From contig JBBPSI010000082.1 in the NCBI GenBank assembly GCA_038093515.1, positions 38,415 to 102,414 on the forward strand: a DNA stretch of 64,000 nt, written 5' to 3'. Origin of the DNA: Butyriboletus loyo. Taxonomy: Eukaryota > Basidiomycota > Agaricomycetes > Boletales > Boletaceae. Made by a program: the position numbers and the translations under genes. This document shows positions 15,294 to 59,936 of this stretch, piece by piece. How positions within the stretch are numbered: position 1 is the first letter of the stretch; each line of letters opens with the position of its first letter. The notes under the pieces were generated by a model. That model had not been told where the DNA came from and did no database searches. It saw only the letters and a program-made list of their open reading frames with translations.

Positions 15294-17515
15294 ATGAGTG
15301 CTGCATTCCGTATCTCATCCGCGCTCTGGGAAAAGATCCACCATTTCGCGTCCTTTCCCCAGACTGGAGGTCAGTTGTTCGCTCTGCTCTCCTCGTTGAT
15401 CTCGCTTTCTCTATCCTGTCTCTCCTTCCGTCTGTGGCGGGACCTCAGTACCGTTTCTGAGTTCAGGGTCCTCCGCGGACATTCGGATTGCGAGACAAAG
15501 TAACTCGAGATCGTAGATGGTCTTACGAGCCCAAGGATAGTGACACGTAAAGTACTGTCTCTATCTATTTCCATGCCTTTTATGATCGTTCTCGTGTCTC
15601 ATGTGATACTGATCGTGACCTCATGCAACAGTGTCCCTTCAACAAATGGTTCTCTTCGGGCAGCATCCCAGCCAAGGTACTCTTCTGAAAGCCAGCCAGT
15701 TTTTAGTTGGTAAGTTGCCTCTCGAGTTCGATCCACTCACTCGTCGAGTTGTTCTAACTAATGCACATTCTCGTCATTCCTCTGATCTTGATGCAGAGGA
15801 ACTTCCGGTTCGCCTTGCCCACCGTGTCAAAGAGCTTGATGAACTCCCATATAACTTAAGCGAAATGCTCTCCATACGTAAAGTTAAGAACTGGTACGCG
15901 CAGAGTTTTGAGGTGGGTTATTAATCTCAAATTATTTGAATTTCTTCGAACCCTGAGTTATTCACATTACGTTTCATCACTGTCGCAGGAATTGATCAAT
16001 TTTCCGTCACTTTCCTTATCACCTGCTGCCCGACAGTCGTTGTTTGCCCGTTTGGACAAGGAGGACACGAATATATTTCTCCCGGAGAGTGTCCCTAATC
16101 CATCCCTCATCACCTCCTACCTTGACGGAGACGGCGCTGCCAGCGGCTTGGCGTATGGTGAGAAGGAGGGTGCCGTGTATGGGAGCAAGGTGGGCAATGG
16201 AACATACAATGGAAACGGAAATGGTGGTGGGAATGGCAACGGGGTGTGTGGGCTTCGAAATGGGAACATCAAGCTGCGTGTTCCAATCGAACGAAGGTCG
16301 GTGTGGTCCCTGTACGATCTTCTTTTCTGATTCCCATGATCCATACAGATACTATGCCCAAACCCCTTCCCGTACCTACCCACCGGAAATCCACGACTAT
16401 AATGCCCGATTCACGAAGACGTTGGAAACCATCAAGCGTAGACATGATCCCACGGTGACCACTGTCGCTCAGGGTGTGTTAGAGTGGCAGAGGGCAAAGG
16501 GAATTAAATCAGGTATGGGAGTGGGGTTGCCCGCGTACGGGCAAAGCGGAGGTGAAGTGCAGGCGTGGTTGGATAGGTTCTACATGTCGCGCATCGGGAT
16601 ACGGTTCCTAATTGGACAGCGTGAGTATTTCATTCCATGGATTTCGTTCGTCTTGTTGACTCTGATTAAGATGTGGCGTTGAATAACCAACAACCGCACA
16701 AGGATTATGTGGGCATTATCTGTACCGAAGCTGTGAGTTCCTATCGCTTGTCGTTGTGTTGTCTCACGATAGCTTCCTCATATGCATGGTCTTCGTTTAA
16801 CAGAATGTGCATGATATCCTGCAGGAAGCCATCGAGAATGCCCGGTTCGTCTGTGAAGAACATTATGCGATGTTCCGAGGACCGCCCGTGCAACTCATTT
16901 GCCCTCCTGACCTGACGTTCGCTTATGTACCGGGACATCTATCCCACATCGTTTTCGAACTGCTCAAGAATTCACTGCGAGCTGTCGTGGAGAGGTTTGG
17001 GCCAGAGTACGAAGACTGGATGATCGAAGACTCTTCCTCGGGCGGAAGCAATGGTGGATACCCTCCGATCAAGGTGATCGTGGTTGAGGGGAGCGAGGAC
17101 ATCACCATCAAGATCTCCGATGAGGGGGGTGGTATTCCGAGGAGTGCCATCCCGCTTATTTGGACTTATATGTACACGACCATGGGTGGTCAAAGTATCG
17201 ATCAAGACTTCCAGGTAAGGACATACCTTGGCTTCGTGGACGGGCCATGCGTTGATCTCATTGTTACAGGCGGACGACTTTCAAGCGCCGATGGCAGGCT
17301 TCGGATACGGCCTACCGCTCTCTCGACTGGTGCGTCATCCACGAGGATCTTTCACGTGTTGTAATCTCACTGGGGATCTGGTTGTTTTGTTTTTGTTTGG
17401 ATAGTATGCGAGATATTTTGGTGGCGATTTGCGCCTCATCTCCATGGATGGCTTTGGCACAGATGTGTATATCCATCTGAACAAACTCTCGAGTAGTCGA
17501 GAGCCCTTGCCTTGA
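15294..17515 (+). CDS. PDK: mitochondrial pyruvate dehydrogenase (or BCKDH) kinase
   Basis: Nine exons (15294-15369, 15632-15709, 15797-15912, 15989-16296, 16349-16620, 16671-16732, 16804-17214, 17270-17329, 17405-17515) give 497 residues with all phases in agreement. The product would phosphorylate and switch off the E1 subunit of pyruvate or branched-chain keto-acid dehydrogenase in the mitochondrial matrix. The N-terminal helical domain shows [17 protein letters not shown] and [14 protein letters not shown]. The GHKL ATPase domain follows, with N-box [12 protein letters not shown] (the Mg-binding Asn is present), G1 box DEGGGIP and G2 box [18 protein letters not shown]. An unusual Gly/Asn-rich insert lies near 16195-16270 between the two domains. 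Intron 1 (262 nt) is the longest in the gene. The sequence alone does not decide between PDH and BCKDH as substrate. Confidence 0.95.
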
Positions 17516-17856: not shown

Positions 17857-20046
17857 ATGGACTCGCCAAAACGTGCTGGATCGCCTTCCCCTTCCTCTGA
17901 AACGAAACGTATAAAGCTTACAGTTCCATTAGGCCAACAATCACAAGGTGCTACCCCCGTTGACCCCGAAAATGCACCAGGAAAGCGCTCAGAACTCGAC
18001 CCCATTCAAGGTGGTGAGATTGGCAACATACACAACGACATAGATGGCGGTGGTGGTGGAACAAGTGGAGAAGGCGCCGCTGGAGAGGTGCGGGTGTTGA
18101 AAGAGGGCGAGGGCGAGGAGGATGCGGGCGACGTGTCGATGGCTGAGGTCGTCGATGAAGACGTCGAGTCGGGGGACGAAGGCGACGACGAAGACCCCGC
18201 CCAACTCGAGGCGACACGGTTAAAACTCGAGGAACAAGCCCGAAAATACCTCGCAGCGCAGACGCACGACGTCATCATCCCTTCTTATTCGGCTTGGTTC
18301 GACATGTCGACCGTTCATCCTGTCGAACGTCGTGCGCTCCCAGAGTTTTTCAATTCGAGGAATCGATCCAAGACGCCTTCGATTTATAAAGAGTACCGCG
18401 ACTTTATGATTAACACGTATCGTCTTCGGCCGACGGAGTATTTGACGGTGACGGCGTGTAGACGAAACTTGGCTGGCGATGTCTGTGCTATCATGCGTGT
18501 CCACGCGTTCCTCGAACAGTGGGGACTTATCAACTACCAGGTGCGGTTTGTTTCTGTAGTCTTGATGTCTTTTTCGTGCGTGCCAACCGAATGGCTTTGA
18601 AAGATCGACCCAGAACAAAGACCGGCAGCACTTGTCCCTCCATTCACGGGACATTTCCGCGTCATCCTCGACACACCTCGTGGCCTTCAGTCTCTCCATC
18701 CCGGAACACGCCCTTCTAACACCCACCTCGCTGCCAATGGCGTGCCAAAAAATCACATGGCGTCCCAACAGCTCGGCGCTGCATCCTCTACCCTCAGTTC
18801 CACCGCCATTTCCGCTTCCCTCGAACTCCGCAATTCCATTTACCAAACCACCTCGAAAGCCTCCCGAGAACTAAAACCCGCCGAAGCCAAAACGCTCGCA
18901 AACGGTATTTCCTCGAATGCCAGAGGAAACATGTCGTACCAATGTGATACCTGCGGGACCGACTGTACCGCACTACGGTATCACAGTCTAAAGGTCAAAG
19001 ACTTTGAGCTCTGTGCATCGTGTTATCTCGATGGGCGGTTCCCCTCGACCATGTTCAGCGGCGACTTTGTGAAGTTGAGTGCTGCACCGCCTGGCGTTGG
19101 CCATGGTGCAGATGACGAATGGACGGATCAAGAGGTGTTGTTACTACTGGAGGGAATTGAGATGTATGACGATGATTGGACCGCTATCGAGGATCACGTC
19201 GGGACGCGCACGGCACAACAATGTATACGCAAATTCCTCTCGTTACCGATCGAAGACCCGTACATTGCAGCGGAAGGGGATCAGGGGCCGCTCAGATATG
19301 GGAAGATTCCGTTCGAGCAGGCGGATAATCCTGTGATGAGCGTAGTGGCGTTCCTCGCGGGTGCGGTGAACCCTGCCGTTGCCGCCGAAGCAGCCAAGAC
19401 GGCCATGCACGTTCTCGCCGAGGGCGGTGCGTCAAAAGAAACCGAGACCAAAAAACAAGGGAACATGAAGGAGGATGTGGACGACGAGAAGCTCGAGAGG
19501 GGGGATGCGATGCAACAAGACGTCCCAGAGGCACCATCTGTACCACCCAATGGTGAACCGTCGATCAAGAATGGTACGGAGGGTCCGCAGGGAACCGACA
19601 TGGTCGTTGACCAACCTACGGAGTCGACCAAGCCTATGCCGAAAATCTCTCATTCCCACGTAGCGCGCGCTGCGGGACTCGCTCTCAAATCCTCTGCGCG
19701 TGCTGCATCGGCACTTGCGGATGCGGAGGACGCGACGATTCGAAGCACGCTTGCGTCGTTGATCAAGTTGACGCTGACCAAACTGGAGCTGAAGATGACC
19801 GCGTTTGAGGAACTGGAAGAGCTTTTGGAGGAAGAACGAAAAGGTCTGGAGAGCACACGGATGGCGCTCGTCAACGAGCGGGTGAATTTGAAACGGATGT
19901 TGGACGGGGTGAGAGCCGAGCTGGGCAAGAATGCCAATCTTGGGACGACGAGTCAGGGGACGCCGGTGAGCGAGGTGCCGTCGGGGACGCCGATAGAAGG
20001 GGACGTGGGTCCGGTGAGCGATGGTAGTTTTGCGCAGCTGGGTTGA
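17857..20046 (+). CDS. SWI3: SWI3/RSC8/SMARCC-type chromatin-remodelling subunit
   Basis: Two exons (17857-18540, 18604-20046) with a 63-nt intron give 708 residues. The protein is a core scaffold subunit of SWI/SNF or RSC nucleosome-remodelling complexes in the nucleus. Order of domains: Ser-rich basic N-terminus ([12 protein letters not shown]), acidic linker, SWIRM domain at about residues 138-240 ([20 protein letters not shown]; cut by the intron after LINYQ), ZZ-type zinc finger at about 337-385 ([10 protein letters not shown], then [11 protein letters not shown]), SANT domain at about 399-447 ([20 protein letters not shown]), then a C-terminal leucine/glutamate coiled coil near 620-668. 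The ATG at 17857 was chosen because it begins the conserved-looking basic start; an in-frame ATG exists at 17776. The domain set is exactly that of the family. Confidence 0.95.
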
Positions 20047-20432: not shown

Positions 20433-22661
20433 CTAGACTAGTACCGTACGTTCCATGCCAGCGGCACGTTCGTCAAAGATCTGCTGTGCAAGACAACTCG
20501 CCTCCACCTCACCCAGATCGTCGATCCCTTCCTTTAGCATCTTCTCCACACCCTCTCGCTTCAGCGTCTTCCTGTGACCAGGCAAAAGGAGCTCCATCGC
20601 CCGGCTCCCCACGAGCACGAACCATCGATGGAGGTCCTCGGGACAATACACCTCTCGCGTCGTCGTCGCCTCAAGGCGCTCGACGAACCCGACGAGAAGT
20701 CCCTGAATCGTCTCCGTCGAATTTTGGTATCTTCGCTCGTGCGCGTCATCTTCACCTCGAAGTACCGTGATGCACGCGTGATCGAGGAAACACATCGCCC
20801 GAAGCGCTCCGACCGTTTTGTGCTTATCCCACCAATCCTCCATCCGTCCCCTCATCTTGCCGAGCCCGGTGACAATGAGCATCGTCGGCACCTGCCTACG
20901 ACAAATGTAGTCGTAAAAGAGGCGGTAGTTGGTTTCCACTGCACGCGTGACCCTGCTCCCGACCATGCACAGCCATATGAGGTGGATACCACCGGCGTCC
21001 TTGACTTGTCGGACGAGGTGGTACAGGTGTCGAATCGCAGTCTGGTAGTTTTCGAGATCGAGATATGGGTCTCTGGGGCCGATGGTGTAGAATATGCGAA
21101 TGTTTTTCGATCGGAGCGTGGTATCGATGACCGTGACCGCCATCATTTCGCGGTCATAGTCTGTGAGTGGCTTGATGATAGTATCACCAGTGATAATGTT
21201 GATCACCCTGCCCGCGGCGACACCTGGCTCACCACAGACGACGACGTTGGTTGTCTTGACGCCAGGAGGGTGTCGAGGGAGCTGAGCGATACGTTCGGCT
21301 TCGGTGGGTTCGGGGAGGGAATCCGGATCACCGGTCGGTGGTCTCTGTCGGTCATCGGAGGGGCACTCTCCATATCGGCTGACCACGTCGATGTCCCGCA
21401 ATGAGTACCCCTCCAGCTTCGATTCTTCGTCGCTCAACTGCTCCAGACTGCCTGGAGCGCTGTTCATATCATCCGTCTGGTCGTCTCCCTCTCCCTCCCC
21501 CTCCCCCTCCTCCTCCGCCTCGCCGCGCACAAGGTGCACTCGGATGTATTTCAACGGGCCGATTTCTTTCAGGTAGATGACGAGAGGACGTTGGGGCTTA
21601 TCACCATCGGGAGGTTCGAAACTGCATCGTAGGACCGCCTTCCAGAGTTGTCCCTTTATATGTTTGATAGGGAGGGAGATGCGAACCAGGTTGTTAGTGA
21701 TGGAGAACTGCGACCGATAGCTATGCTCTCTGATCCTGTCCACGTAGTTCTTGCGGAAGTCGTTTTCAGAGATTTCGTAGGATGCTCGGTATTGGGATGG
21801 AGAGGATGCGAGGAATCCAGTGGGTGTGTTTGGAAGGATACCCGTATCGCCCTCGACCGACTCCGGAATTGGATCGGGAGCTGGGTCAGGAGCTGGGTTT
21901 GCGTCCGCCATCTCGACGTCTTCAGGTTGAGGGGTATCATAGTACCAAGCGAAGAGGGTTTGGTCGGCGTATTTTGTGATGAGTTTGTGTTGCAGGTCTT
22001 CAAAAGCGTCATCGTCTATCCCATAGTTGGGAACCATGCTCACGCCGAGTATACCCAATAGCGAGTACGCCTTGTCTTCCACTTTGACCGTTTCTCTCTT
22101 GGCCGCCCAGAACATCTTTTGAGATATGGTTATGTCTTGGGGAATTTTACCAGATCCAAGGATCTCGTCGCTGATCCCCGTGTGGTCTGCAATGAGGTCT
22201 ACCAATTCCTCCCGAGTACCGATACATTCCCAGTCTTTCGTAAAGAACTTGAGTACTTTTGGTGCGATCAGCTCTTGTAGCGTCCAACCCCTCGAGAACC
22301 AATCGCTCTTGGTGAACTCGGAGAGATCGCTGACATCGTGCAGATAGGCATAGCATACTTCCGATTTCTGATACCACTTGTACATCGAGTTGATCGCCTC
22401 GCCGAGTTCTGTGCTGTTGCTCTTATCGATGCAACAGGTGTCCAACCAGACGTAGTTGAGCCCGTCTTGCATCGCCTGGGCGCAGGAACCCAAGAGCTTG
22501 TGGTAGCCCTTGCCCTTGCCCTCAGCGCGCGCTTGTTCACCAATGTCGGTGAAGAGAACCTCTTCTGATTCATCACCCCATCGATGGGATACGATCGCGT
22601 AGGGAGCAAGACGGTGGTGTAATAGCTCTAGTTGTTTCGACCTGGAATTGAGAAGACGCAT
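20433..22661 (-). CDS. HET-domain protein with degenerate GTPase-like C-terminal half
   Basis: One uninterrupted frame of 742 residues. The N-terminal part is a HET domain of the fungal heterokaryon-incompatibility type: APYAIVSHRWG, then YVWLDTCCIDK, SVCYAYL-like EVCYAYLHDV, and WFSRGWTLQELIAP, followed by the usual extension ending AYSLLGILGVSMVPNYG. Such domains trigger cell death in non-self recognition. The middle is acidic and low in complexity. From about residue 470, NVVVCGEPGVAAGRVINIITG resembles a P-loop in which the usual GKS/T is replaced by AGR, and YRLFYDYICRRQVPTMLIVTG resembles the later part of AIG1/Era-like G domains seen in basidiomycetes; the NKxD-type motif is also missing. 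The second half is therefore read as a non-catalytic G-domain relative, which is inference. Lack of introns is unlike its neighbours. Confidence 0.85.
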   Translation of the reverse strand: MRLLNSRSKQLELLHHRLAPYAIVSHRWGDESEEVLFTDIGEQARAEGKGKGYHKLLGSCAQAMQDGLNYVWLDTCCIDKSNSTELGEAINSMYKWYQKSEVCYAYLHDVSDLSEFTKSDWFSRGWTLQELIAPKVLKFFTKDWECIGTREELVDLIADHTGISDEILGSGKIPQDITISQKMFWAAKRETVKVEDKAYSLLGILGVSMVPNYGIDDDAFEDLQHKLITKYADQTLFAWYYDTPQPEDVEMADANPAPDPAPDPIPESVEGDTGILPNTPTGFLASSPSQYRASYEISENDFRKNYVDRIREHSYRSQFSITNNLVRISLPIKHIKGQLWKAVLRCSFEPPDGDKPQRPLVIYLKEIGPLKYIRVHLVRGEAEEEGEGEGEGDDQTDDMNSAPGSLEQLSDEESKLEGYSLRDIDVVSRYGECPSDDRQRPPTGDPDSLPEPTEAERIAQLPRHPPGVKTTNVVVCGEPGVAAGRVINIITGDTIIKPLTDYDREMMAVTVIDTTLRSKNIRIFYTIGPRDPYLDLENYQTAIRHLYHLVRQVKDAGGIHLIWLCMVGSRVTRAVETNYRLFYDYICRRQVPTMLIVTGLGKMRGRMEDWWDKHKTVGALRAMCFLDHACITVLRGEDDAHERRYQNSTETIQGLLVGFVERLEATTTREVYCPEDLHRWFVLVGSRAMELLLPGHRKTLKREGVEKMLKEGIDDLGEVEASCLAQQIFDERAAGMERTVLV

Positions 22662-24324: not shown

Positions 24325-25148
24325 GTGGTCACTGTTGCTACAGAAAAATCATGGGCGATAGTCAACGCACACTGGACGCTCAGTCTCTCCCGTAGTTCCT
24401 ACAGAAAGCCCATGGGCGATAGACAACACGCTGAATACACAATAGTCACTCACTGGGTATTGCTTCTACAGAAAATCTGTGAGCAATAGCCAATGCATGC
24501 TGAATGCACGGTGGACACTCACGACGACCCATTGTTCCTACAGAAAACTCGTGAGCAACAGACAACACGCTGAATACACAATGGTCACTCACTCGGTATT
24601 GCTTCTACGGAAAATCCGTGAGCAATAGCCAATGCATGCTGAATGCACGGTGGACACTCACGACGACCCATAGTTCCTACAGAAAACTCGTGAGCAACAG
24701 ACAACACGCTGAATACCCAATGGTCACTCACTCGGTATTGCTTCTACAGAAAATCTGTGAGCAATAGCCAATGCATGCTGAATGCACGGTGGACACTCAC
24801 GACGACCCGTTGTTCCTACAGAAAACTCGTGAGCAACAGACAACACGCTGAATACACAATGGTCACTCACTCGGTAGTGCTTCTACGGAAAATCCGTGAG
24901 CAATAGCCAATGCATGCTGAATGCACGGTGGACACTCACGACGACCCATAGTTCCTACAGAAAACTCGTGAGCAACAGACAACACGCTGAATACCCAATG
25001 GTCACTCACTCGGTATTGCTTCTACAGAAAATCTGTGAGTAATAGCCAATGCATGCTGAATGCACGGTGGACACTCACGACGACCCATTGTTCCTACAGG
25101 AAACTCATGAGCGATGGCAAACACACTGAATATACGATGGACACTCAC
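24325..25148. repeat. hierarchical tandem repeat (70/139/278 bp) of intron plus micro-exon units
   Basis: The phrase GTTCCTA recurs at 24534, 24673, 24812, 24951 and 25090, exactly 139 bp apart, with GTTCCT also at 24395. Each 139-bp unit holds two diverged half-units of 67 and 72 bp (57 plus 12 nt intron and exon, then 55 plus 15), about twelve half-units in all. Neighbouring 139-bp units alternate in variants, giving a 278-bp higher-order period. The first half-unit at the 24325 end is the most diverged. Confidence 0.9.
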
Positions 25149-25327
25149 TGGCGGCGGTTGAAGTTGAGCCCTTCGGGCCCTCTGACTTCGATGTCGATAT
25201 CCACGCCCACGCCAGGCTCATGCTTCACCGCCTTCGTGTCAGGGGCACCATAGACGGAAGGTGAGATGGGCAGCGCAGCTACCACTGCAGCGGTGCTGAG
25301 CCAGAGCATGAGCCTGTTGCGCAACAT
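24380..25327 (-). CDS. predicted secreted repeat peptide encoded by ten micro-exons
   Basis: Twelve exons on the minus strand. Exon 1 (25327-25149) encodes an N-terminal signal-like segment (hydrophobic core LMLWLSTAAVVAALP, then small residues) and a linker ending LNFNRR. Then come micro-exons 25093-25079, 25021-25010, 24954-24940, 24882-24871, 24815-24801, 24743-24732, 24676-24662, 24604-24593, 24537-24523 and 24465-24454 (alternately 15 and 12 nt), and a last exon 24398-24380 ending in TGA. All eleven introns are 55 or 57 nt, start GTGAGTG, carry a CTCAC or CTCAT branch-site-like motif and end in TAG; all are phase 2. Every exon joins in frame to give 110 residues. Residues 61-105 are five nonapeptides of the form NNGSSSNTE or NYGSSSNTE (one STTE and one SNTQ variant), then NYGRD. 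The NN units contain N-G-S glycosylation sequons. Role unknown; a secreted effector-like or wall peptide is a guess. The model is unconfirmed by transcripts, but the regularity is hard to explain otherwise. Confidence 0.75.
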
Positions 25328-25353: not shown

Positions 25354-25739
25354 GAGTCGATTTTAAATACGTGCGTCAAGGAAAGGGGCGGGACTGTTTT
25401 CCTAACTCACTTCGCCAGCATGCTCAAACACTTCAGTGTTTGAAGAGGGCAGACAGCTGCCACCACATGTCACAGTCAATGACGAGTCTATGGAAGATGC
25501 GGTGACGTCCGCTGTTTACACGGGCGGAGATAAAAGTTATGTTAGTTTTGCAAGAAGTTCGCTCAGGTAGGTGATGATGGATTTTCAGCGTCGAAGAGTC
25601 GATTTTAAATATATGCGTCAAGGGAATGACCTGGACTGTTTTCCTGACTCAGTTCACCAGCACCATCAAACACAGTGTTTGACGAGCCGAGGGTAGATAG
25701 CTGCTACCACACGCCATGGTCGATGGCGAGTCCATGGAA
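25354..25739. repeat. direct duplication of the micro-exon gene promoter
   Basis: About 144 bp at 25354-25497 recurs at 25596-25739, beginning AGTCGATTTTAAATA and running through ACTGTTTTCCT, CAGTGTTTGA and GAGTC.ATGGA. The two copies are 242 bp apart and moderately diverged. A further shared block, CACGGGCGGAGAT, lies at 25335-25347 and 25517-25529, so the duplication reaches the start of the gene. The outer copy may be the remains of a second gene 5' end. Confidence 0.7.
25361..25369 (-). promoter_or_regulatory. TATA-like box of the micro-exon gene
   Basis: TATTTAAAA on the minus strand, about 34 nt upstream of the ATG at 25327, which implies a very short leader. The same box recurs in the duplicated copy near 25603-25611. 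Confidence 0.45.
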
Positions 25740-43019: not shown

Positions 43020-44198
43020 CTATGGGGTAATCACAAGTCCCTTGTTGGCGACAATATGGCCAACGGCACCGCAGAGGCTGCATACTCGTTCAGGGCAAAA
43101 CTCCTGAATATGACCTGGGGCAATGCGGTGGCAGAAGGGACACATGTAGTTGGGGCACTCCCTTCGAAAGTGGCTGACGGTGCCGCATTCGAAGCAAAGT
43201 TGCAGGCGGACGAGGCGAGGTCGAGCAGGGTGTGGGCTGCCGACAGGGGATCTGTCGTCAAGGACGATGGGGGCATCACGAGTCCCATGATTGGCGAGGT
43301 AGGGGGGCGGGGCTCCATACGAGGAGTGGGAAGAACCAGCCACTGCTGCGACGGGGGAGGTGACTCGAGGGATGAGCTGAATGGCGGGGGTTCCGTGACG
43401 GGTGGACGGTTGGGGGGTGACGGAACGAAAGGCCCTATTGGCGATTCTTCTCCCTGCGGCAGTGAGGGTGACCGATCCTGGGACAGATCCAACCTGGAGA
43501 AGCGTCTGGCGAGGTTGGCAATGCACAGTTCGAGGCGGTAGAGGGAAGTGTCGACGAGTGACCTGGGGCTCATCAACGTCGGTCCGAAAGGACTCCAGGG
43601 ACTCACTGGTTGTTTCACAGGAAGAGTCTGCTACCAACGTGGTCACAGGTGAATCTCTTGTGGGTGGCGCTGGAATAGGTAGTGGCGGAGGAGATCCTTC
43701 CGTGGCAGGACGAGGAGGAGGATTGGGGCCGCGAGCGGTGGGGCGAAGAAATCCAATCCTGTCGTTGGACTGAAAGTAAAACTCTCTCTCCCTAGGGGCG
43801 AGAGCAACGAGGATAGGGCGAAGGACGGGGGCGAGGATGCCTGGGAGGAGTTGGTCCACGACATATCCAAACCCTTCAGCATGAAGGATGTCCAGGGTGT
43901 ACCCCCTAGCCTCCATCAGGGAGGTCTCTAGGGCGGTGGCGTATACGGGCGGTTGATTGTCAGGACAGAGGCGGGTGTGGACGGTGCGGGCTAGGGCATA
44001 TGAGCGGTAGAGTGAAGCGAGGGTGCGGAGAACATAGTCTCCAGTGAAATCCATACGCTGCTCGAGAGCATACGTAGCAATGGGGTTTTCGAGGACTGCG
44101 GCGTAAAGGACGCGACGGGAGGAAACTGGGAGACGAGAGGAGCGGACAGGAGGCTGCTGGGGTAGGGGAGCATTGTTTTCTGCGGGTGGAATGGCCAT
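43020..44198 (-). CDS. G1 3' accessory ORF with tandem CCHC knuckles, interrupted
   Basis: This frame begins with an ATG 45 nt after the integrase stop (MAIPPAENNAPLPQQ) on the same strand. The first 170 residues are probably helical (RRVLYAAVLENPIATYALEQ), the middle is Pro/Ser-rich, and the end has three knuckles: CFECGTVSHFRREC, CPFCHRIAPGHIQEFC and the start of CSLCGAVGHIVAN. It is cut at the last knuckle by the family A LTR; the missing end is at 42198-42472. Gag of the same element lies at 48196-49191, so this is an additional product. Its position is like that of env or accessory ORFs, but it has no signal or membrane segment. The function is unknown; RNA binding is likely from the knuckles. 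Confidence 0.7.
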   Translation of the reverse strand: MAIPPAENNAPLPQQPPVRSSRLPVSSRRVLYAAVLENPIATYALEQRMDFTGDYVLRTLASLYRSYALARTVHTRLCPDNQPPVYATALETSLMEARGYTLDILHAEGFGYVVDQLLPGILAPVLRPILVALAPREREFYFQSNDRIGFLRPTARGPNPPPRPATEGSPPPLPIPAPPTRDSPVTTLVADSSCETTSESLESFRTDVDEPQVTRRHFPLPPRTVHCQPRQTLLQVGSVPGSVTLTAAGRRIANRAFRSVTPQPSTRHGTPAIQLIPRVTSPVAAVAGSSHSSYGAPPPYLANHGTRDAPIVLDDRSPVGSPHPARPRLVRLQLCFECGTVSHFRRECPNYMCPFCHRIAPGHIQEFCPERVCSLCGAVGHIVANKGLVITP

Positions 44199-44242
44199 CT
44201 TGTTGTTTACTGAGAAGATGGGGAGGGAAAGTCCTTGGGGTG

Positions 44243-45472
44243 TCACAGTTTATAAGCCTTGAGAAGGGCTTGCGCATGGACCAAGTTCCCATTTGGCTCC
44301 CAGGTGTTCTCCGCTGCGGAGTACCCTTTCCAGGAAACCAGGAACTGGCGGCGTCCCTTGGAGCCACGGTGGGATAAGATCCGATCGATCTCGTACTCTT
44401 CATCTCCGTCTATTTCTTCCGGAGGGGGATTGGTAAAATTCGGGCCGTGTTCCACTGTTTCGCGATAAGGGGTTAGGAGGGACACGTGGAAGACATCATG
44501 GATCTTCCATGTCGGTGGCAGTCGGAGTCTATACGCCACAGGGGAGATGACTTGTGCAATTTCAAATGGACCTTCCCGTCTAGGGGCGAGCTTCTTTGAC
44601 GGGTACCTGAGTCTCAGGTTGCGCCCTTCAAGCCAAACCTTATCGCCTGTCTTCCATGGGCGGAACTTGGACGAGATCCGTTCCTTCATTAATCGCCGTG
44701 CCTTCTCATGGGCTTCTAGAGCTTCCGTTCGGGCTCCCGTGAGTTCCGAGAGTCTGGACTCGAGGGCAGGGAGGAAAGTCTTTCCGATTGGAGGATAAGA
44801 CCTCGGCTCATACCCGACCATCAGGGAGAATGGGGTCACATTTGTCGAAGAGTGAGTCATGGAATTGTGGGAGAATTCGGCCATAGGGAGGAGTTCGGCC
44901 CATCGTTCTGGGTGACCGTCGCAGAAAATCCTGAGATACGTTTCCAACTCCTGATTGACTCGTTCAGTTTCGCCATCCGTCTGAGGATGATATGCGGAGG
45001 AGAGGGCGAGATTGTAGTCCAAGAGTCTTGCAAGCTCTCTAGCAAAAGCGGAGGCGAACTGAGGGCCACAATCCGAGATGCAGTGGGAGTGGAGTCCGAA
45101 TTGAAGGAAGACTGTTTTGAAAAATAGTTTGGCGACTCCTGCCGCATCGATGTCTTTGTTGCAAGGGGAATAAATTACCCCCTTCGTAAGCCCATGGTCT
45201 ACCACGACCATGACAGAATCATAACCCAGAGAGGGGGGAAGACCGGTGATGAGATCAACCGAGACCTGTTCAAAGGGGCGAGAGGCCACGCTGGCCAAAG
45301 GAGTGAGAGGAGGAATGGTGGGATGAGTATTAACCTTGTGTGCCTGACAGACGGCGCAGCCGGAAACGAAGCGGCGGACCAGATTAGCCATGCCTGGCCA
45401 CCAATAATCCCTTTGCACCAGGTTCTGGGTGCGGAAAATGCCACCATGACCGCCAGTGGAACTCTCATGCAA
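44243..45472 (-). pseudogene. G1 copy 1 integrase with chromodomain
   Basis: 409 codons on the minus strand. The HHCC zinc domain is seen as GCAVCQAHKVNTHP with upstream histidines; the catalytic core has VDLITGLPPSLGYDSVMVVVD, SDCGPQFASAF and TDGETERVNQELETYL, so the D, D and E residues are present, though the usual SDRGPQF reads SDCGPQF. A chromodomain follows at the end (EYEIDRILSHRG, then FLVSWKGYSAAENTWEP), which in related elements directs insertion to heterochromatin. It is part of the pol frame, separated from its upstream part by the TGA at 45476-45478. Confidence 0.9.
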
Positions 45473-45475
45473 AGA

Positions 45476-45823
45476 TCAGATGAGGTCGACATGTGCAGCC
45501 TCAGGGATATACCACTTCTTGCGGAAGTATAACTCTTTTCCATCAAAGTCCCAGTCCCCAGCATTCATTTTAGGGAAGAGGGGAGAGTCTTCATAAAGGG
45601 CTTGCATGCACCGCTTGATCATAGGGTCGCTGGGAGTCGAGGCGGCAATTTTTTCTGTGAGTGCAATGTTGATTTTCCTGGAGAACAGGTTTTCGGGGAG
45701 GAGGGTGACCTCCTGGTTGTCGGCGGAAGTGTCAACGTCGTCTCGTCGGGATAGGGCATCTGCAGGGCCCATCTGAGTTCCAGGGATGTGGTGGAAGTGC
45801 AGGTCGAAATCCTGTAAGAACAT
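45476..45823 (-). pseudogene. G1 copy 1 RNase H to integrase connection
   Basis: The frame reads FLQDFDLHFHHIPGTQMGPADALSRRDDVD, the end of RNase H, and runs to KKWYIPEAAHVDLI before a TGA. Its upstream part is separated by the insertion at 45825-46270, and the next codons (SLHESSTGGH) begin the integrase frame. Confidence 0.8.
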
Positions 45824-45824
45824 G

Positions 45825-46270
45825 TGTTGAAACAGTAGTGTTCTATCTATATTTCACTTACAGCCACTACGTTTCTAGACGAGTCTATATGACATCATTG
45901 TCTAGACCTAGTCATGCTTATCACATTACAAATAGCTCTTATTATGCTATTGGACAATATGCTTAGTCTTATCTCTTATCTCTATCATATCGTCATGTAT
46001 TTCATACTATACCTTATAAAGGTACTATACAGAACATAAGTACAAACACTCATGTACTGTATATAAGACAGCCCTTATGGCTTGTCACTTTTCTCTAGAT
46101 CTTTCAGTTCTATCATCACTACTGCGATATCTCTAAGTTGAGCTTTGCTCCTTATACTCTGTTTGCAATACTCTCACTCTCGTATTATCAGTGAGTCTTT
46201 CCACTGATAGGTTTACCCTTGCATCCTTCATTGCCCTCGGTGCGCCTGCTCGGACTTTACCAATTCCGAA
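45825..46270. mobile_element. 446-bp insertion of unknown family in G1 pol
   Basis: AT-rich sequence between two copies of AACATG (45819-45824 and 46271-46276). Removing it restores the RNase H frame (LMF then LQDFDL), so it is an insertion with a 6-bp target duplication. On the plus strand it starts TGTTGAAACAG and has a TATA-like TTATAAAGG near 46013, so a solo LTR is possible, but the other end (CCAATTCCGAA) lacks the usual CA. Confidence 0.65.
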
Positions 46271-47536
46271 AACATGAGCCAGCAGGCTTGCCAGCGGGAC
46301 AGTTTGTTGGGTTGGCAAAAGTAGGTGAGATTCTTGTGGTCGGTGAGAATCTCCACTTGGTGACCCATTCCTCGCAGGTAGTGTTGCCACTCTTCCAGTG
46401 TGTGAATGACCGCGAGCAACTCGCGATCGTAGATATCGTAGTTGCGCTCTGCGGGTGAGAGCATCTTTGACAAGTAGGCACAAGGATGTAGGTCGCCGTT
46501 GACATCCTTTTGCATGAGTACTGCACCAGTGGCAGTGAGGGAGGCGTCTGTCATAACGGCGAACAGTTTCGTGACATCAGGCATGGAGAGGACGGGTTGG
46601 CGCAAGAACAACTGCTTGATTGCTTGGAACGCCTGTTCACAAGCCGGAGTCCATGCCCATGGAGAGTTCTTCTTGGTTAAGTCATGGAGGGGTTTTGCAA
46701 TGTGGGAGAAGTCTTGTATAAACCTTCAATAGAAATTGCAAAAGCCTATGAAGGACCTGACAGCCTTCACCTGGGGGGTTCCATTCGTGAATGGCTTTTA
46801 GCTTGGTGGGGTCCATTTTGACTTGACCCTCCCAGACCATCATCCCGAGGTATTCGACTTCCTCAGCGTCGAACGAACATTTCTCCAGCTTGAGAAATAG
46901 TTTGTGTTCACGGAGACGTTCCAGGACATGAATCGTCCGTGCTTCGTGTTCAGCAGGGGTGGCGGAGTGGATCAGAAGATCGTCCATGTAGATAATGAGC
47001 CATCCTTCGGCCATGAGGTTGCCGAAGATATGGTCCATCAGCGCTTGAAATGTTGCTGGGGAGTTGCAAAGCCTGAAGAACATCACTGTTGGCTCGAACA
47101 AGCCTTGGGGGGTGATGAATGCTGCTTTCCAGTGGTCGTTCGGTTTAATGAGGACGTTGTTATATCCCCAGCGAATGTCCATCTTAGTGAAGATCTTTGA
47201 TCCTTTGAGGCGATCAACGAGGTTGGAGATGAGAAGGAGGGGGTAGGCATTCTTGACCATGTGGGAGTTCAAATACCGGTAGTCTTGACAGGGGCATAGC
47301 GAGCCATCTTTCTTGGATACGAAGAAGAAAGGGGCTGCTTGCGGGGACTTGGAGGGAGTGATTTTCCCGGATTTGAGGTATTCTTCGATGAACACCTTGC
47401 ATGCCTCTGATTCCTTCGGGTTCAGAGGATAGACCTTAGCGACTTTGGGTACGAAGTCTTTGTCGAGGTCAATGGCGTGGTTGAACGACCTGGATGGGGG
47501 TAGCTCCTTGGTGTTCTTTTTGTCAAAAACGTCCAT
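46228..47536 (-). pseudogene. G1 copy 1 reverse transcriptase and RNase H
   Basis: The RT frame 47536-46682 includes the conserved DIRWGYNNVLIK, GLFEPTVMFFRLCNSPATFQ and YMDDLLIH (catalytic DD present). A frameshift near 46775 changes frame before the thumb, and a TGA lies at 46726-46728. RNase H follows at 46611-46271 with TDASLTATGAVL, AERNYDIYDRELLAV and TDHKNLTYF (the D, E, D residues are present) and runs into the insertion at 46270. Confidence 0.88.
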
Positions 47537-47599
47537 GAAGGACTTGAATGGGGTTGGGAGAACTGCTTTCTCCTTGATGGTCTGAGCAGCGATCTCAGT

Positions 47600-48178
47600 G
47601 GCAATGGTTGCCTTTCTGACGGGGTAGGTGTCCCTTGCCGAAGTGTCTACTCACTTCTTCCAGAGCTTGGCAATCTTGGAGTCTGGATCCAAGTCAAGGT
47701 ACTGTACCAGGTAGCATTGAGCAATTGCCCGAGGGGAGTCGTGTCAGGGCTTCTTGATTTGATCCGGGAGATCGATATGGCCAGTGGCCCAATCTATTAC
47801 CGGGTTTGCTTCTCGTAGCCACGGTAATCCCAGGATCATGTTTTCTCTTCCTATATTGAGGACCAGGAAACTTCATTCCTCCTCGGTTTCTCCTATCCTG
47901 ATGGAGATGGTGACCTTGTGTCATATTACTCCTCCTTGGTTGTTTGACCCGTCCATGTTTTGGGCACTAAGTGGCTTGAGTAGCCATTCCATCGGCAATT
48001 TCTTTTGCTTTACTAGATCTTGGTCTATAAAGCATCCGCTTGTGCTGCTGTCCACCAGGGCGAATGTGTCGATGATTTGACCCCCTTCATGCATGAATAA
48101 AGACACAGGAACTCGAATAGATTGCACATTGGGGTTCGATAAAACTACAGGGGCGATTACATGGAGAGGTGAAGACAT
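47600..48178 (-). pseudogene. G1 copy 1 protease region with mutated active site
   Basis: The frame 48178-47921 reads FALVDSSTSGCFIDQDLVKQ where copy 2 has FALVDSGASGCFIDRDLVKR, so the catalytic DSG became DSS. A TGA at 47921-47923 stands for CGA in copy 2. Further stops follow at 47738-47740 (also present in copy 2) and 47651-47653. The changes fall at CpG positions. Confidence 0.85.
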
Positions 48179-48195
48179 CGAAACTTCCCTCTCTT

Positions 48196-49191
48196 CTAAA
48201 AATCCTTCAGCCAGGCTTCGGCCACCTTGGTTGCTGCAACGGGCAGCCTTTCTTCATCCTCGTTGAAGCATGCCTTGAGGACGTTTAAGACATCTTCCTG
48301 TTGGGTGCCTCGACCTTTCAACTTGGACAAGTAGTCGACGAGTGGGGAGGGCTTTGGTTCGGGGGGTGTGACAACGGCAGCGCGTGCGTGCTGAGGGTTG
48401 CAAGGGGGATGAGAGGTCGGTCCTCGGGAGTTCTGCCCATTGCGAGGGGGATGGGGATGGTTGGTCAATCGACAGCCAACTTGGTGGCAGACAAAGCATT
48501 TGTTCTGCTTCATATACTCTGCACGTTGCACTGGAGTAAGTCGGATGGTGTCAATGTCCATAGCATTGGGATCCCTTTGGCTAGACGAGGGCTTGGAGGA
48601 GGAGGAGAAGGTGGGGATGTAACGCTTCCCTGTGCATAGGTCGTTGATGAGCTTGTGTTGCGCATGGAGGGCGGAAGTCTTTTCGGCCCAACTGGCGAGT
48701 GTGGTGGGGGGTTTCTCGCAAGAGAGGACGGATTCGGCAAGGCGGGGGTCAAGACTGTGAATAAACCATTCAATGAGCACCTTCTCATCGATGATTCCTG
48801 ACTTGGCGGCGAGGAGCTGGAACTCCATGATGTAGGTGTTATAGCCGTCTTTGCGGTTGGCTTTGTTCTGGGTGAGGTTCCCCAGGTCAATTCTGGCACT
48901 TTCGCCTACGTCGAAGGGGTGGAAGACCCTGTGAAAGTCCTCACAGACCGTCGAGAACTCCTTTTGTTGCTCGGTGGGGTGTCCGTCTAAGAGAAGGGCC
49001 ATCCAACCTTCTGAAAACGTTTTTCCTTTCCCTTCGCTCATTTTCATGAGGAGGGTGTTGATCTTTGACTGGTCATTGGGAAAAGCTGCTTGGTTGGCAT
49101 TAAAGTACGTGCGCATGGCGAGGAGCCATCGTGAGGCGTCTTTGTTCAAGCCGGTGAAGTCCTTATGGACAATATTCTTTTTGTCGGACAT
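48196..49191 (-). CDS. G1 copy 1 Gag
   Basis: 331 codons from MSDKKNIVHKDFTGLN. The capsid-like region includes MRTYFNANQAAFPNDQSKIN and FEGWMALLLDG-like FSEGWMALLLDG, then IEWFIHSLDPRLAESVLS. The knuckle is CFVCHQVGCRLTNHPH. The stop lies in a UUUUUAG context that also allows a -1 shift into the protease frame. Upstream the same frame stays open through a proline-rich stretch to the LTR, without an ATG. The protein packages element RNA. Confidence 0.82.
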   Translation of the reverse strand: MSDKKNIVHKDFTGLNKDASRWLLAMRTYFNANQAAFPNDQSKINTLLMKMSEGKGKTFSEGWMALLLDGHPTEQQKEFSTVCEDFHRVFHPFDVGESARIDLGNLTQNKANRKDGYNTYIMEFQLLAAKSGIIDEKVLIEWFIHSLDPRLAESVLSCEKPPTTLASWAEKTSALHAQHKLINDLCTGKRYIPTFSSSSKPSSSQRDPNAMDIDTIRLTPVQRAEYMKQNKCFVCHQVGCRLTNHPHPPRNGQNSRGPTSHPPCNPQHARAAVVTPPEPKPSPLVDYLSKLKGRGTQQEDVLNVLKACFNEDEERLPVAATKVAEAWLKDF

Positions 49192-49569
49192 ATCATTGTC
49201 GTTGTTGTCGTCAGGGAAGGCTGCAGGAGGATAATACGGTGGGGATGGAGAGCGGGAGACATGGGGGGTTCTGTCAAGCCAGTCGCTGTTATAACCGTCG
49301 TCACCAGGTGTTGGTTCAGATTCCTGCCCTAGACCCTGGTCCTTGGGTTGATAGGAGGATTCGGGGTCTGACTGGGGTGGAGGGTGAAACTGGGGTTGAG
49401 GGTCTGGCTGGGCAGGAGAGTGTGGCGGTGATGGGTTGTCAACAACGATGGGTTCCGGTTCGGTGGAGGGAACATGGAAAGAATGACCGACACGTCTAGA
49501 TTGTGGGATGGAAATGTTGGGCGAGAGGGGAGGGCGGCTTTACTGCTGAAGAGCAGAAGCGAGGTGAAG

Positions 49570-49579
49570 ATCTAGTTCT
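49570..49579 (-). promoter_or_regulatory. self-complementary primer-binding site of G1 copy 1
   Basis: AGAACTAGAT, two bases after the 5' LTR, is the exact complement of ATCTAGTTCT in the LTR (49734-49743), which lies about 31 nt after the LTR TATA box and so is the predicted 5' end of the RNA. This is the Tf1/sushi self-priming arrangement. Confidence 0.7.
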
Positions 49580-49581
49580 TT

Positions 49582-50008
49582 TGTTACGCTGGGCGCTAAC
49601 AATTAGAACAGTGAGGAGGCACTCTGGAGTGGCCTCGAGACTCGGGAGACGATTCTGGACGAAGTCTCAGACTATGTCTTAGTGTGCACACTAAGAGTCT
49701 GGAAGTGAACTAATTGCTAGCAGATTGCTGCATAGAACTAGATAAGTTACAAGTGTGTACCAACTGGGTTTATATACTGGTGGAGTCTGCGCACAGACCA
49801 TGCTCCCAATCGAGTCGCGAGAGCGAAAAGATAAATGAGGATGGAATACTCTAGAAGCTTCTGGAGTATGAAGGAAAGTGCGTCCGTGCACGTAAAAGGA
49901 TGACTAAGCTGGAACAGTTGTTACCGTTCAAAGGGAACTAGCAAAAGGCTAGGTGAATGTAGTAGTCCAAGTGGTAGTGGAAGGAAAAAGTATACCACTA
50001 CCGTAACA
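49582..50008 (-). repeat. family B LTR (5' LTR of G1 copy 1)
   Basis: 427 bp with TGTT..AACA ends; very similar to 41720-42146. The TATA-like box on the minus strand is at about 49769-49775. It abuts the truncated end of G2 at 50009. Confidence 0.92.
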
Positions 50009-50870
50009 CATTGGGTTTGAGTGACTTGATCTTGTACGGACCAATCCAATGCTGTGTGAGTTTTCGTGTAGTATATGGTAACTTCAAGTTTTCCGTAGAT
50101 AACCACACTCTATCTCCAATTTTGTAATCGGGCACATCTTATCGTCTATTATTGGCCTGTGATACCATGCGCTTCCTAGCTTCTTCTAACGCTTCTTTGA
50201 CTTCGGCATGCGATTTCCCAGCGGCACATGTGAAATCTCCGGCTAGCGTGTTGGAAGACTTTTTGAAACCGACTTGTGGATAATAGTTACGAGTAATAGA
50301 GAATGGGATAGTACCCATGGCAGTGGTGAGGGAGTTATTATGATTAAACTGGGCGATCTTGATCCAATCGGCCCATGTTTCTTGTTTTTTCGCCACGTAG
50401 GTATGTAAATATTGTTCCATTTCCCTATTTATCCGTTCGGTTTGACCATCAGTTTGTGGATGATATGCCGTTGAGATTTTCTGGGAAATGCCAAGAAGCT
50501 TGCAAAGCTCTGTGGTAAAGTCCGATACAAATTGTGGACCTCGGTCCGAAACTATAGAGATAGGAAGTCCATGAATGCACCAAACATTGTCTCTAAATAT
50601 AATTGCTAACTCTTTGGAAGAGGTAGTTGTCTTACAAGGGACATAAACACCTTCTTTGGAGAAGCAATCCACTATCGTACAAATGGCGTCGAAGCCATTC
50701 GAAAGAGGAAGTCTGGTGACAAAATCTACAGATATATCTTCCCAAGGGTGACTAGCCGAGGGAAGTGGTAATATTTTACCTGCTGGTGCATTTTGTTTAC
50801 CCTTCGTGAGGGCGCATGCTTGGCAAGATTCTACATATCTTTTAACATCCTTTGTGACTCCAGGCCACAT
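50009..50870 (-). pseudogene. G2 integrase, C-terminally truncated
   Basis: The frame 50870-50139 has VESCQACALTKGKQ of the zinc domain, DISVDFVTRLPLSNGFDA, SDRGPQFVSDF and TDGQTERINREMEQYL, so the D, D, E triad is intact. A stop at 50139 is followed in the same frame by DYKIGDRVWLS and WIGPYKIKSLKPN (the GPY/F module) up to 50009. Stops at 50139-50141 and 50871-50876 and loss of the end make it non-functional. Confidence 0.88.
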
Positions 50871-50876
50871 GAAATG

Positions 50877-51614
50877 TCACGTAAGAAGATGGGCCATACG
50901 GGCTTGACCCGAGTGTCCCGCTATTGGAGAGTCGTGACATATTTTAAGTAACTCTATTCTAAGTGCCTCAGGCACCAAGACTTTTTTCTTTTCATTAATA
51001 AATACAGATTGTTCCGAATCGTAATAGAATCCTGGGTATTCTTTTGTTTTTTCTTTTTCTGATTCTTTTTGTAAGGTATTGTAAAAGGAAGAAGAAAGGG
51101 AAACTTTATTAAGGAAAAGGTTCGGGGGAAGTACCGTAATATTGGTATTATAGTCCGTGACAGCATCACCGTGGTCTGCTCGACGCGATAGCGCATCTGC
51201 TCTGCCATTGGTTGAGCCTGGTTTGTAAACAAATAAATAATTGAATTCTTGAAGAAGCGCATGCCATCGTGCTTGTCTCCCAGACAGCGTTTGCGGCTTC
51301 TTCCAATATTCTAGATTTTTGTGATCGGTCCAGATTTCAAATCCTTCTCGACCAATAAGATAATGGCACCACTCTTCTAGCGCACAAATAACTGCTAATA
51401 GTTCTTTGTCATAAATTGGGTAATTCCTTTCAGCAGTGTCGAAGGAATGTGACAAAAAGGCACAGGGTCGCCACAGGTCGTCTGATCCTTTTATGGAAAG
51501 AACTGCACCAACCGCTATATCCGAGGCATCCGTTTCTACCCGCATCTCCTTGTCTCGATCTGGGTAGGCTAAAAGCGGAGCCGAAGTGAACTTTTTCTTT
51601 AGCGTGTCAAACAC
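50877..51614 (-). pseudogene. G2 RNase H and connection domain
   Basis: 245 codons. It has VETDASDIAVGAVLS, AERNYPIYDKELLAVICALEE and WTDHKNLEYW, then FVYKPGSTNGRADALSRRADHG, so catalytic D, E and D residues are present. A TGA separates it from the RT frame (near 51675) and another separates it from the integrase frame. Confidence 0.88.
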
Positions 51615-51674
51615 TCTTTGTTCATCTAAGCCCCATTTGAAAGGGGTGTCCTTTTTTGTTAAGTTGTTGAGGGG

Positions 51675-52153
51675 TCAGGCAATCTCCGAGAAACCCTCAA
51701 TAAATCTACCATAATAGTTGCATAGTCCTAAAAACACTTGAACTTGCTTCAGATGCGAGGGCATAGGCCAGTCTCGGATGGCATCTGTTTTCTTTGATTG
51801 CATTTCAACGCTGTTTCGGGACACAACCATACCTAAAAAGTCCACTTTATCCAAAGAGAATACACATTTCTCCGGTTTTACAAATAAATCATTTTCTCGA
51901 AGGCACTGGAGTACTTCTTTAACTTTTTCCTCATGCTTGGCCCTCATTTTTCCTTTGGTGAATATCATAACGTCGTCGATATAAATAATGACATAGGCAT
52001 ACATATCATTGAAGATGTCGTTCATCATGTTTTGGAATGTGGGAGGGGAATTGGTAAGCCCGAAGTACATGACCATGGGTTTGTAGGCTCCAATGGGTGT
52101 GACAAACGCCGCTTTCCACTCATCGCCTTCTTTGATACAAATATTATTAAATC
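51675..52153 (-). pseudogene. G2 reverse transcriptase, second half
   Basis: Reads FNNICIKEGDEWKAAFVTP, MVMYFGLTNSPPTFQNMMND and YVIIYIDDVMIF (catalytic DD present), then the thumb FLGMVVSRN to FIEGFSEIA and a stop. The upstream half is beyond the solo LTR C1 at 53408. Confidence 0.88.
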
Positions 52154-53407
52154 TGTTACGCTGATAGCGCACAATAGCTAGCAGCGAGCACTTATAGGGG
52201 CTCGAGCCTAATGAGGAAACTAGCCGACTCGTGTAGACAACGCTATCGGGTGTCTTGCAAAGCAAGTGTTGGCGAGATCTTGAGTGGTGGCGACCAGACG
52301 AGATCAAGCAGACTCTTATCGGCTTTATCGGCAAGAAGAGGGTATACTGCTAGATTACTATGCACTTGGTAGATGCGTAGAATTAGCTAGGGAACTCGTA
52401 CTATCCTAAGTGCGAGTATATTGTTACGCTGGGCGCTAACAACTAGAACAGCGAGGAGGCACTCTGGAGTGGTCTCGAGACTCGTGAAATGTTTCTGAGC
52501 TGGGTCTCAGACTATGTCTTAGTGCGCACACTAAGAGTCTGGAGTGAAACTAATTGCTAGCAGGTTACTGCGTAGAACTAGATACTGTACATGGTATAAA
52601 GGCTGGGTCTTTATACTACTGGGGTCTGTGCACAGACCATGTCCCTAATTGAGCCACAAGAAGGGAAAGTACAAATACGGAAGGAATATTCCAGAAGATT
52701 CCGGAGTATGAAGGAAAGCACGTCCATGCGCGAGAAGTGATGACTAAGTAGGAACAGTTGTTACCGTTCAAAAGGAACTAGCAAAAGGCTAGGTGAATGT
52801 AATATTCCCAATGGTAGTGGAGAGAAAAAGTAGACCACTACCGTAACATATATATACTGATACATATGGCGCACAGACCGAGCTGTGCGTGGCAGCGAGG
52901 GTAGGGGGTTATGAGTCGATGCGAGTCATAACGGCAAAGTGGGGGAGCGGCAAAGTGCCGGTAACGAGGGAGCTATGCTCCGAGCAAGATGGCGACATCA
53001 TCAGCGAATAGGAAGAGCTGAAGGCGAAGTGACGATGTCCACGAGGTACGGCCCACAGGGCAAAGGGGTCGCAAACAGCAGAGCCCTTGGATACGGGTCT
53101 CGACGCAAAGGTACTGACATGTCGTAATCTAGTCATGTGCTAGTCACGTGATGAACCAAATGTCATTGGATAAAGAAAGGAGGGACGCGACAGCTCAGCT
53201 GTGGGTCTGGCCCGATGGGGTGACGAGACAGGGGCTATCTTAGTGTAGCGACACTGAGACTTGCAGGAGCGACCAGGGGAGTGGATAACGTCCACTAGGC
53301 AACTAGGGAGCGGGCGATGGGCGGCATTGCAAGACGGCAGGGGTGATGGGGATATGTAAGCGTGGGAAAACGAGTGGCGGGGTACGCTTAGGGGTAAAAC
53401 TGTAACA
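52154..53407 (-). repeat. solo LTR C1, interrupted by a family B LTR
   Basis: Family C LTR with TGTTACGC and ACTGTAACA ends (plus-strand reading), flanked by AAATC at 52149-52153 and 53408-53412. Without the nested family B LTR and its duplication it is 822 bp. It sits inside the RT of G2. Confidence 0.92.
52422..52848 (-). repeat. solo family B LTR nested in C1
   Basis: 427 bp, flanked by TATAT at 52417-52421 and 52849-52853. No internal sequence is attached, so it is a solo LTR of the G1 family and younger than C1. Confidence 0.92.
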
Positions 53408-54716: not shown

Positions 54717-54738
54717 GTGAAGACATCTGCCCAGTATG

Positions 54739-55561: not shown

Positions 55562-55567
55562 GTATGC

Positions 55568-58269: not shown

Positions 58270-58289
58270 GGGACCGGGTGTGTATCTGA

Positions 58290-58300
58290 AGTTTTAACCA
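58290..58300 (-). promoter_or_regulatory. self-complementary primer-binding site of G2
   Basis: TGGTTAAAACT, two bases after the 5' LTR end, is the exact 11-nt complement of AGTTTTAACCA at 58449-58459 in the LTR, about 35 nt after its TATATAAAG box. This is the same arrangement and spacing as in G1. Confidence 0.7.
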
Positions 58301-58302
58301 AG

Positions 58303-59815: not shown

Positions 59816-59936
59816 GGTAAGCTTCCCTTGCTGAAGCGTCTACTCGCTTCTTCCAGAGCTTGGCGATTTTGGAGTCTGGATCCAAATCCAGGTACCATAC
59901 CAGGTACTGTTGCGTGATTGCCCAAGGGGAGTCATG

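Follow-up and report, generated by a model that had tools for sequence, protein, structure and literature searches.

The window, a 64,000-nucleotide stretch of a Butyriboletus loyo contig, carries on its minus strand, from 25327 to 24380, a gene (C82) that reads as a first exon followed by eleven successive segments, each running from GTGAGTG to TAG. Taken as introns, these segments—six of 55 nt and five of 57 nt, together spanning 25148–24399—leave ten internal exons of 15, 12, 15, 12, 15, 12, 15, 12, 15, and 12 nt (Table 1). The rebuilt gene model confirms several claims made in a sequence-only reading of the locus, namely that micro-exons of alternately 15 and 12 nt separate the 55/57-nt segments, that all eleven introns are in phase 2 with every internal exon a multiple of 3 nt, and that the predicted product has 110 amino acids and contains repeats such as NNGSSSNTE; its signal-like N-terminus is supported by eye. 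Loss of the donor in the last unit is likewise borne out, the site reading CTGAGCG. The CTCAC or CTCAT reported near each acceptor was found in 10 of the 11 introns, the last one having CCCAT instead. Tandem Repeats Finder gave a period of 139 nt, 5.4 copies, and 93% matches for the array, in which the 139-nt unit is accompanied by a higher-order period of 278 nt. Downstream of the relic intron lies a stretch that, by eye, is like the terminal exon of the paralogues C404 and C369. At the other end of the gene, the promoter-like stretch with TATTTAAAATCGACTC has a second copy further upstream, 83% alike and 242 bp apart.

Thirty-two open reading frames (ORFs) of at least 170 amino acids were considered in the window, and a Pfam scan was run on 17 of them. 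Among the retrotransposon matches, those to gag and protease were weak, with the gag ones falling below Pfam's cut-off. No Pfam family matched C82 exon 1 or the C82 product at E ≤ 0.1, no Rfam match was obtained at E ≤ 1 between 23500 and 26500, and a tRNA scan of the whole window found none.

Table 1. Features of the C82 gene and its surroundings, in window coordinates
Feature	Position	Strand	Remarks
Mitochondrial kinase gene	about 16044–17404	+	ends by eye
Gene with SWIRM-associated, Myb, and ZZ domains	18742–20046	+	
HET-domain gene	20433–22661	−	
Relic intron	24338–24383	−	donor lost, acceptor CTGTAG kept; by eye
Last exon, 19 nt	24380–24398	−	15-nt unit with lost donor; TGA at 24380
Intron 11, 55 nt	24399–24453	−	branch-like site CCCAT
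Micro-exon 11, 12 nt	24454–24465	−	
Intron 10, 57 nt	24466–24522	−	
Micro-exon 10, 15 nt	24523–24537	−	
Intron 9, 55 nt	24538–24592	−	
Micro-exon 9, 12 nt	24593–24604	−	
Intron 8, 57 nt	24605–24661	−	
Micro-exon 8, 15 nt	24662–24676	−	
Intron 7, 55 nt	24677–24731	−	
Micro-exon 7, 12 nt	24732–24743	−	
Intron 6, 57 nt	24744–24800	−	
Micro-exon 6, 15 nt	24801–24815	−	
Intron 5, 55 nt	24816–24870	−	
Micro-exon 5, 12 nt	24871–24882	−	
Intron 4, 57 nt	24883–24939	−	
Micro-exon 4, 15 nt	24940–24954	−	
Intron 3, 55 nt	24955–25009	−	
Micro-exon 3, 12 nt	25010–25021	−	
Intron 2, 57 nt	25022–25078	−	
Micro-exon 2, 15 nt	25079–25093	−	
Intron 1, 55 nt	25094–25148	−	can be aligned to the lone intron of the two-exon paralogues
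Exon 1, 179 nt	25149–25327	−	ATG at 25327; signal-like N-terminus, pro-region, end ...NFNRRQ with RR right before the array; homologues in own genome and Boletaceae
Promoter-like region	25354–25431	−	by eye, resembles sequence upstream of other members of the family
Second copy of promoter-like stretch	25596–25673		
Retrotransposon matches	43020–61381	−	zinc knuckle, Tf2-1-like integrase with chromodomain, reverse transcriptase

Related loci in the genome and in other boletes

Homologues of exon 1 followed by similar arrays had been proposed as worth seeking in the genome and in relatives. DNA and protein searches of the genome (30.3 Mb, 420 contigs), with scoring of the best candidates, yielded at least 14 further family loci, and homologues of exon 1 were also found in Boletaceae. 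Four of the loci are of the array type, with 3–6 introns and internal exons of 12, 15, or 24 nt: C206 (six introns; internal exons of 15, 12, 15, 12, and 15 nt), C404 in two inverted copies (three introns; 15 and 24 nt), and C369 (four introns; 15, 24, and 24 nt). The first donor of C369 (L011 around 2012) is GC, not GT, and a public exon-1 ORF, P0001, reads through it. The inverted duplication of C404 (L010 968–2359 and 2634–4028) comprises copies of ~1.39 kb that are 99.3% identical and separated by a spacer of ~275 bp; lying near a contig end, it is either a real palindrome or an assembly effect.

C201b and C109a are two-exon coding genes with one intron each. Six further paralogues—C30a, C30b, C109b, C36, C201a, and C6 (L012, L013, L015, L016, L017, and L058)—have a stop that precedes the intron and keep an intron-like stretch, which would be 3′ untranslated; in C30b, no YAG acceptor occurs 45–85 nt from the donor. 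The two remaining loci, outside the set of gene models, are C19, which lacks exon 1, and C210, which is degraded by eye. A search of viral contigs with alignment A2 gave 167 pattern matches and 0 relatives.

In the six distinct gene models (C82, C206, C404, C369, C201b, and C109a), internal exons measure 12, 15, or 24 nt only, every intron is in phase 2, and the length of exon 1 always equals 2 modulo 3, whereas intron lengths are 53, 55, 57, 62, and 64 nt; shifts in length by other than a multiple of three are thus seen in the introns but in neither exon 1 nor the internal exons. The numbers of introns form a series among the paralogues (1, 3, 4, 6, and 11), which supports the proposal of the sequence-only reading that the repeat grew by duplication of intron plus micro-exon. 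C82 and its sister genes with shorter arrays may therefore show gene growth by joint copying of an intron and a tiny exon.

Protein comparisons extend the first junction to other species. Aligned with an annotated protein of Boletus coccyginus, the spliced product of C201b shows no gap over its junction (CNTSPDGSQNQG versus CSISHDGTQHIG); against an annotated protein of Imleria badia, a gap of three residues falls immediately ahead of it. For the C369 product, only the N-terminal part aligns with the I. badia protein P0005, and the repeats do not. In 7 of 11 unannotated relatives from outside the genome, Glu stands right before the stop (p about 1e-6 if they are independent, which they may not be), an ending that would fit an unspliced phase-2 GA/GTGAGT donor. 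Among 5.8 billion proteins, with ~8,000 candidates scored in each of the two later searches, the matches from the genome's own loci were the unspliced exon-1 ORFs P0001–P0003 (C369, C404, and C201b), which look as if they had been called without introns, and no spliced array product was found. This negative is weak, given the number of candidates scored and the apparent calling of the ORFs without introns.

Splice signals, divergence, and alternative explanations

We infer from the sequence that the C82 array is spliced. Because duplication has left the intron copies of one gene almost identical, agreement among them carries little weight, and conservation was accordingly compared across paralogues. 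The comparison used half of the 20 internal introns in C82, C206, C404, and C369, with intron 1 and near-copies excluded. In these ten introns, every donor column (6 of 6) is invariant, as are three of the four acceptor columns and three of the five branch-site columns; outside the signals, this holds for 10 of 36 columns (Fisher p = 0.0006 for donor and acceptor together versus the rest). The mean pairwise difference is 0.000 in the donor columns versus 0.267 in the others. Furthermore, the BLOSUM62 similarity is highest in frame 0, of the three frames, for five of six gene pairs; C82/C206 is the exception, another frame outscoring frame 0. By eye, the neighboring kinase gene contains four introns of 50–75 nt, two of them with GTGAGT donors.

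Two other measures were set aside. The spread of micro-exon differences over the three codon positions (5/9/2) is not significantly uneven (p = 0.10) and was rejected as evidence of coding. The generic pattern GTRAGT-N44..64-YAG-N6..36-GTRAGT occurs at 391 places genome-wide versus 605 in the reversed control; it is thus uninformative, and matches to the pattern alone mean nothing.

In one of two gene pairs, the micro-exons clearly diverge faster than the introns. Across five exons and five introns, C82 and C206 differ at 27 of 69 micro-exon sites (39%) versus 49 of 279 intron sites (18%), with p = 0.0003 for copies that are non-independent and p = 0.018 for a single non-redundant unit; between C404 and C369, the difference (8/39 versus 20/174) is not significant (p = 0.19). 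The values of pN and pS in the micro-exons are 0.43 versus 0.16 for C82/C206 and 0.26 versus 0.12 for C404/C369, whereas those in exon 1 are 0.25 versus 0.31 and 0.07 versus 0.22, respectively. No purifying selection at the codon level was thus detected in the micro-exons of either pair, pN exceeding pS. This pattern fits a mature peptide that changes fast while the splice signals stay fixed; relaxed constraint on the micro-exons is the alternative reading.

It is unlikely that only exon 1 (perhaps with intron 1) is used and that the array is an untranslated minisatellite tail; in that case, the splice-like signals of the tail would derive from an intron that founded the repeat. Exon 1 alone is indeed an ORF with a TGA at the donor, the stop precedes the intron in six paralogues, and the micro-exons show no constraint at the codon level. 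The chain of C82 exons does read open, as the sequence-only reading had pointed out, but so do 11 of the 12 frames obtained when the micro-exons of each of the four array genes are joined; openness is therefore weak evidence, has been rejected as an argument for coding, and leaves the idea of a tail untouched. Against such a tail stand the internal-intron donors, invariant across four diverged genes, the internal exon lengths, all multiples of three, and the annotated bolete protein that runs across the homologous first junction (as does another with a small gap).

An assembly artefact, affecting the repeat number of C82 but not the array itself, appears improbable. Of 139 sites, one differs between units 1 and 3, two between units 2 and 4, and seven between the neighbors 1 and 2; pairs as alike as the first two are hard to assemble from short reads. 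However, unit 5 differs from units 1–4 at 15–17 sites, both ends of the array pass into unique sequence, and paralogues carry arrays too. The few differences among the micro-exons of C82, already pointed out in the sequence-only reading, reflect a very young array.

Another account, to which we give quite a low probability, is that of a decaying two-exon gene whose units multiply by unequal crossing-over without an important product. The 3′ end of C82 with its lost donor and relic intron, the state of C19 and C210, the missing YAG acceptor of C30b, and the high pN of the micro-exons all point that way; yet four separate array genes keep their internal donors and their frame, whereas decay should have cost some of the donors. 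Repeated insertion of mobile introns (introner-like elements), suggested by the many near-identical introns of C82, is highly improbable, since the introns come with their own micro-exon in a fixed order, as in tandem duplication, and since all 16 matches listed in a search with the 139-nt unit (six candidates scored) lie in the family loci C82, C206, C369, C404, and C30, so that growth most likely occurred by tandem duplication of intron plus exon.

Proposed precursor and its processing

The units and their phases, the invariant donors, the paralogue series, and the homology of a two-exon paralogue across its first junction in other species, all evident in the sequences themselves, lead us to regard C82 as probably belonging to a family of secreted precursors in boletes whose genes share a single old phase-2 intron. 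In some of these genes, the intron together with a tiny exon would have been duplicated in tandem, lengthening the mature peptide. The precursor would consist of a signal peptide, a short pro-region, Arg-Arg as a Kex2-like site, and a short hydrophilic peptide. In the putative ancestral gene of two exons, a single phase-2 intron of 55–57 nt would have split the C-terminal peptide, with each extra unit of the array members then bringing one intron of 53–64 nt and a coding piece of 12, 15, or 24 nt. Spliced, secreted, and cleaved by Kex2, the product might have a role on the surface of the cell or in encounters with other organisms.

In intron definition, the splice sites are paired across the intron, not across the exon. 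The short introns of the array are most likely removed singly in this manner, and exons of 12 nt could therefore be tolerated. If so, 12-nt exons between 55-nt introns would be a hard test of the minimum exon size under one-by-one intron recognition, and genes of this kind will be overlooked by annotation that sets a lower limit on exon length.

The secreted precursor would most likely be cut after RR, giving in C82 a lengthened mature peptide of 51 residues with the NNGSSSNTE-like repeats, which look disordered. A [KR]R stands immediately ahead of the array in C82, C206, C404, and C369 and ahead of the peptide in C201b but is absent in C109a; C82 and C206 each have one (at residues 58 and 38, respectively), and both C404 and C369 contain three, of which the last is at residue 59. 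No [KR]R lies inside the repeats of the four array products. In C201b, Cys54 and Cys68 flank the junction, and a similar pair is seen by eye in the annotated bolete proteins P0005, P0012, and P0017; the C109a product has no such junction-flanking pair. Since the products of C82, C206, C404, and C369 contain no Cys, a small peptide framed by Cys may have given way, through the array, to a longer hydrophilic one rich in Asn, Ser, Thr, and Gly. The mature part of I. badia P0005, or OG21DRAFT_1513668, contains two 8-residue repeats, GGNGGSNI and GGNDGSGM, between Cys residues; these correspond to 24 nt, the size of the longer micro-exons of C404 and C369, and a similar array may be present there.

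Shorter forms of the C82 peptide could also arise. Because every C82 donor is GTGAGT in phase 2, retention of an intron places a stop codon directly past the junction and leaves the last residue as it was, for 11 of 11 introns, so that incomplete splicing would yield clean shorter forms; in C206 and C404, some steps of retention alter the last residue, and in C369 a retained intron 1 reads on. Skipping any single C82 exon keeps the frame but requires an intron of at least 124 nt, and with C82 introns of 55–57 nt, retention is the likelier source of shorter forms. Isoforms with different repeat numbers are a prediction of the gene model. A bolder and tentative proposal, which we consider doubtful, is that the array serves as a repeat counter built by splicing: peptide length would be set by the number of near-identical 55–57-nt introns removed in turn, one gene could release a ladder of 0–5 repeats, and the ladder lengths of gene copies would differ by recent duplication of units.

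Comparison with known systems

In agreement with the earlier statement that no family with such small and regular exons is known in basidiomycetes, no fungal family of this build was found among the matches listed in the open-licence PMC literature, and the available text of a Rhizoctonia paper mentions microexon only as a read-mapper option (PMC4014442). If the splicing is real, micro-exon repeat genes, as found in schistosomes and aphids, would extend to a basidiomycete.

Introner-like elements occur in unrelated genes in hundreds of copies, according to the part of the source available (PMC4457414). Both they and the array consist of near-identical spliceosomal introns that have multiplied, but unlike these dispersed elements, the intron copies described here lie in tandem and within one family among the matches listed, where single short introns elsewhere could be missed. 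KEX2-processed repeat proteins (KEPs), present in Agaricomycetes, combine a signal peptide, a dibasic site, and short repeats with KEX2-site flanks, as far as the accessible description goes (PMC9769878). The C82 family resembles them in its signal peptide, dibasic site, and short peptide repeats; its identification as KEPs fails, with no dibasic sites between the repeats and the only [KR]R of C82 preceding the array. A weak match in Mycena metata, P0018 (E 0.012), has a similar signal-like start and RGSDSNRDW repeats separated by dibasic sites, and is KEP-like.

SP7-like genes, the partial parallel named in the sequence-only reading, encode secreted effectors of arbuscular mycorrhizal fungi with hydrophilic repeats, the first of them preceded by a conserved intron; they have paralogues scattered in the genome and are specific to Glomeromycotina, according to the sections available (PMC11333574). 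Each of their repeat units closes with a conserved island, and a KEX2 site is predicted within the repeats of SP7 and of three relatives, as given in the accessible part of a second source (PMC5293756). The parallel holds for the hydrophilic repeats after a signal peptide (by eye) and for the intron before the first repeat in the gene models; it does not extend to the micro-exon array, which the available text does not describe for SP7-like genes.

Aphid bicycle genes encode a signal sequence, contain many tiny internal exons bounded by introns nearly all in phase 2, evolve fast, and have ~17 exons on average, in the portion of the paper at hand (PMC9168663); saposin-like folds are reported for the proteins in the available part of another (PMC13041983). 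The phase-2 micro-exons of the six distinct models are like those of bicycle genes. Unlike these insect proteins with their CYC motifs, however, the array products of C82, C206, C404, and C369 have no Cys, and near-identical tandem exons of 12/15 nt are not described for bicycle genes in the text available.

The micro-exon genes (MEGs) of Schistosoma form a multigene family encoding secreted proteins, with internal exons mostly of 15 bp and mostly multiples of three, introns from 100 to almost 5000 bp, and isoforms arising mainly from the central exons, as described in the accessible part of the source (PMC10526429). The array genes likewise contain several internal exons within the 6–81 nt of that description, all multiples of three (10 in C82, 5 in C206, 2 in C404, and 3 in C369), with secretion judged by eye. 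They differ from these genes of an animal parasite with long introns in having introns of only 53–64 nt in the six distinct models, and in their near-identical tandem exon copies, a feature that the available text does not describe for MEGs. Overall, the array gene may work like a MEG, which is a closer structural parallel than SP7, the likeness being one of build, without known homology.
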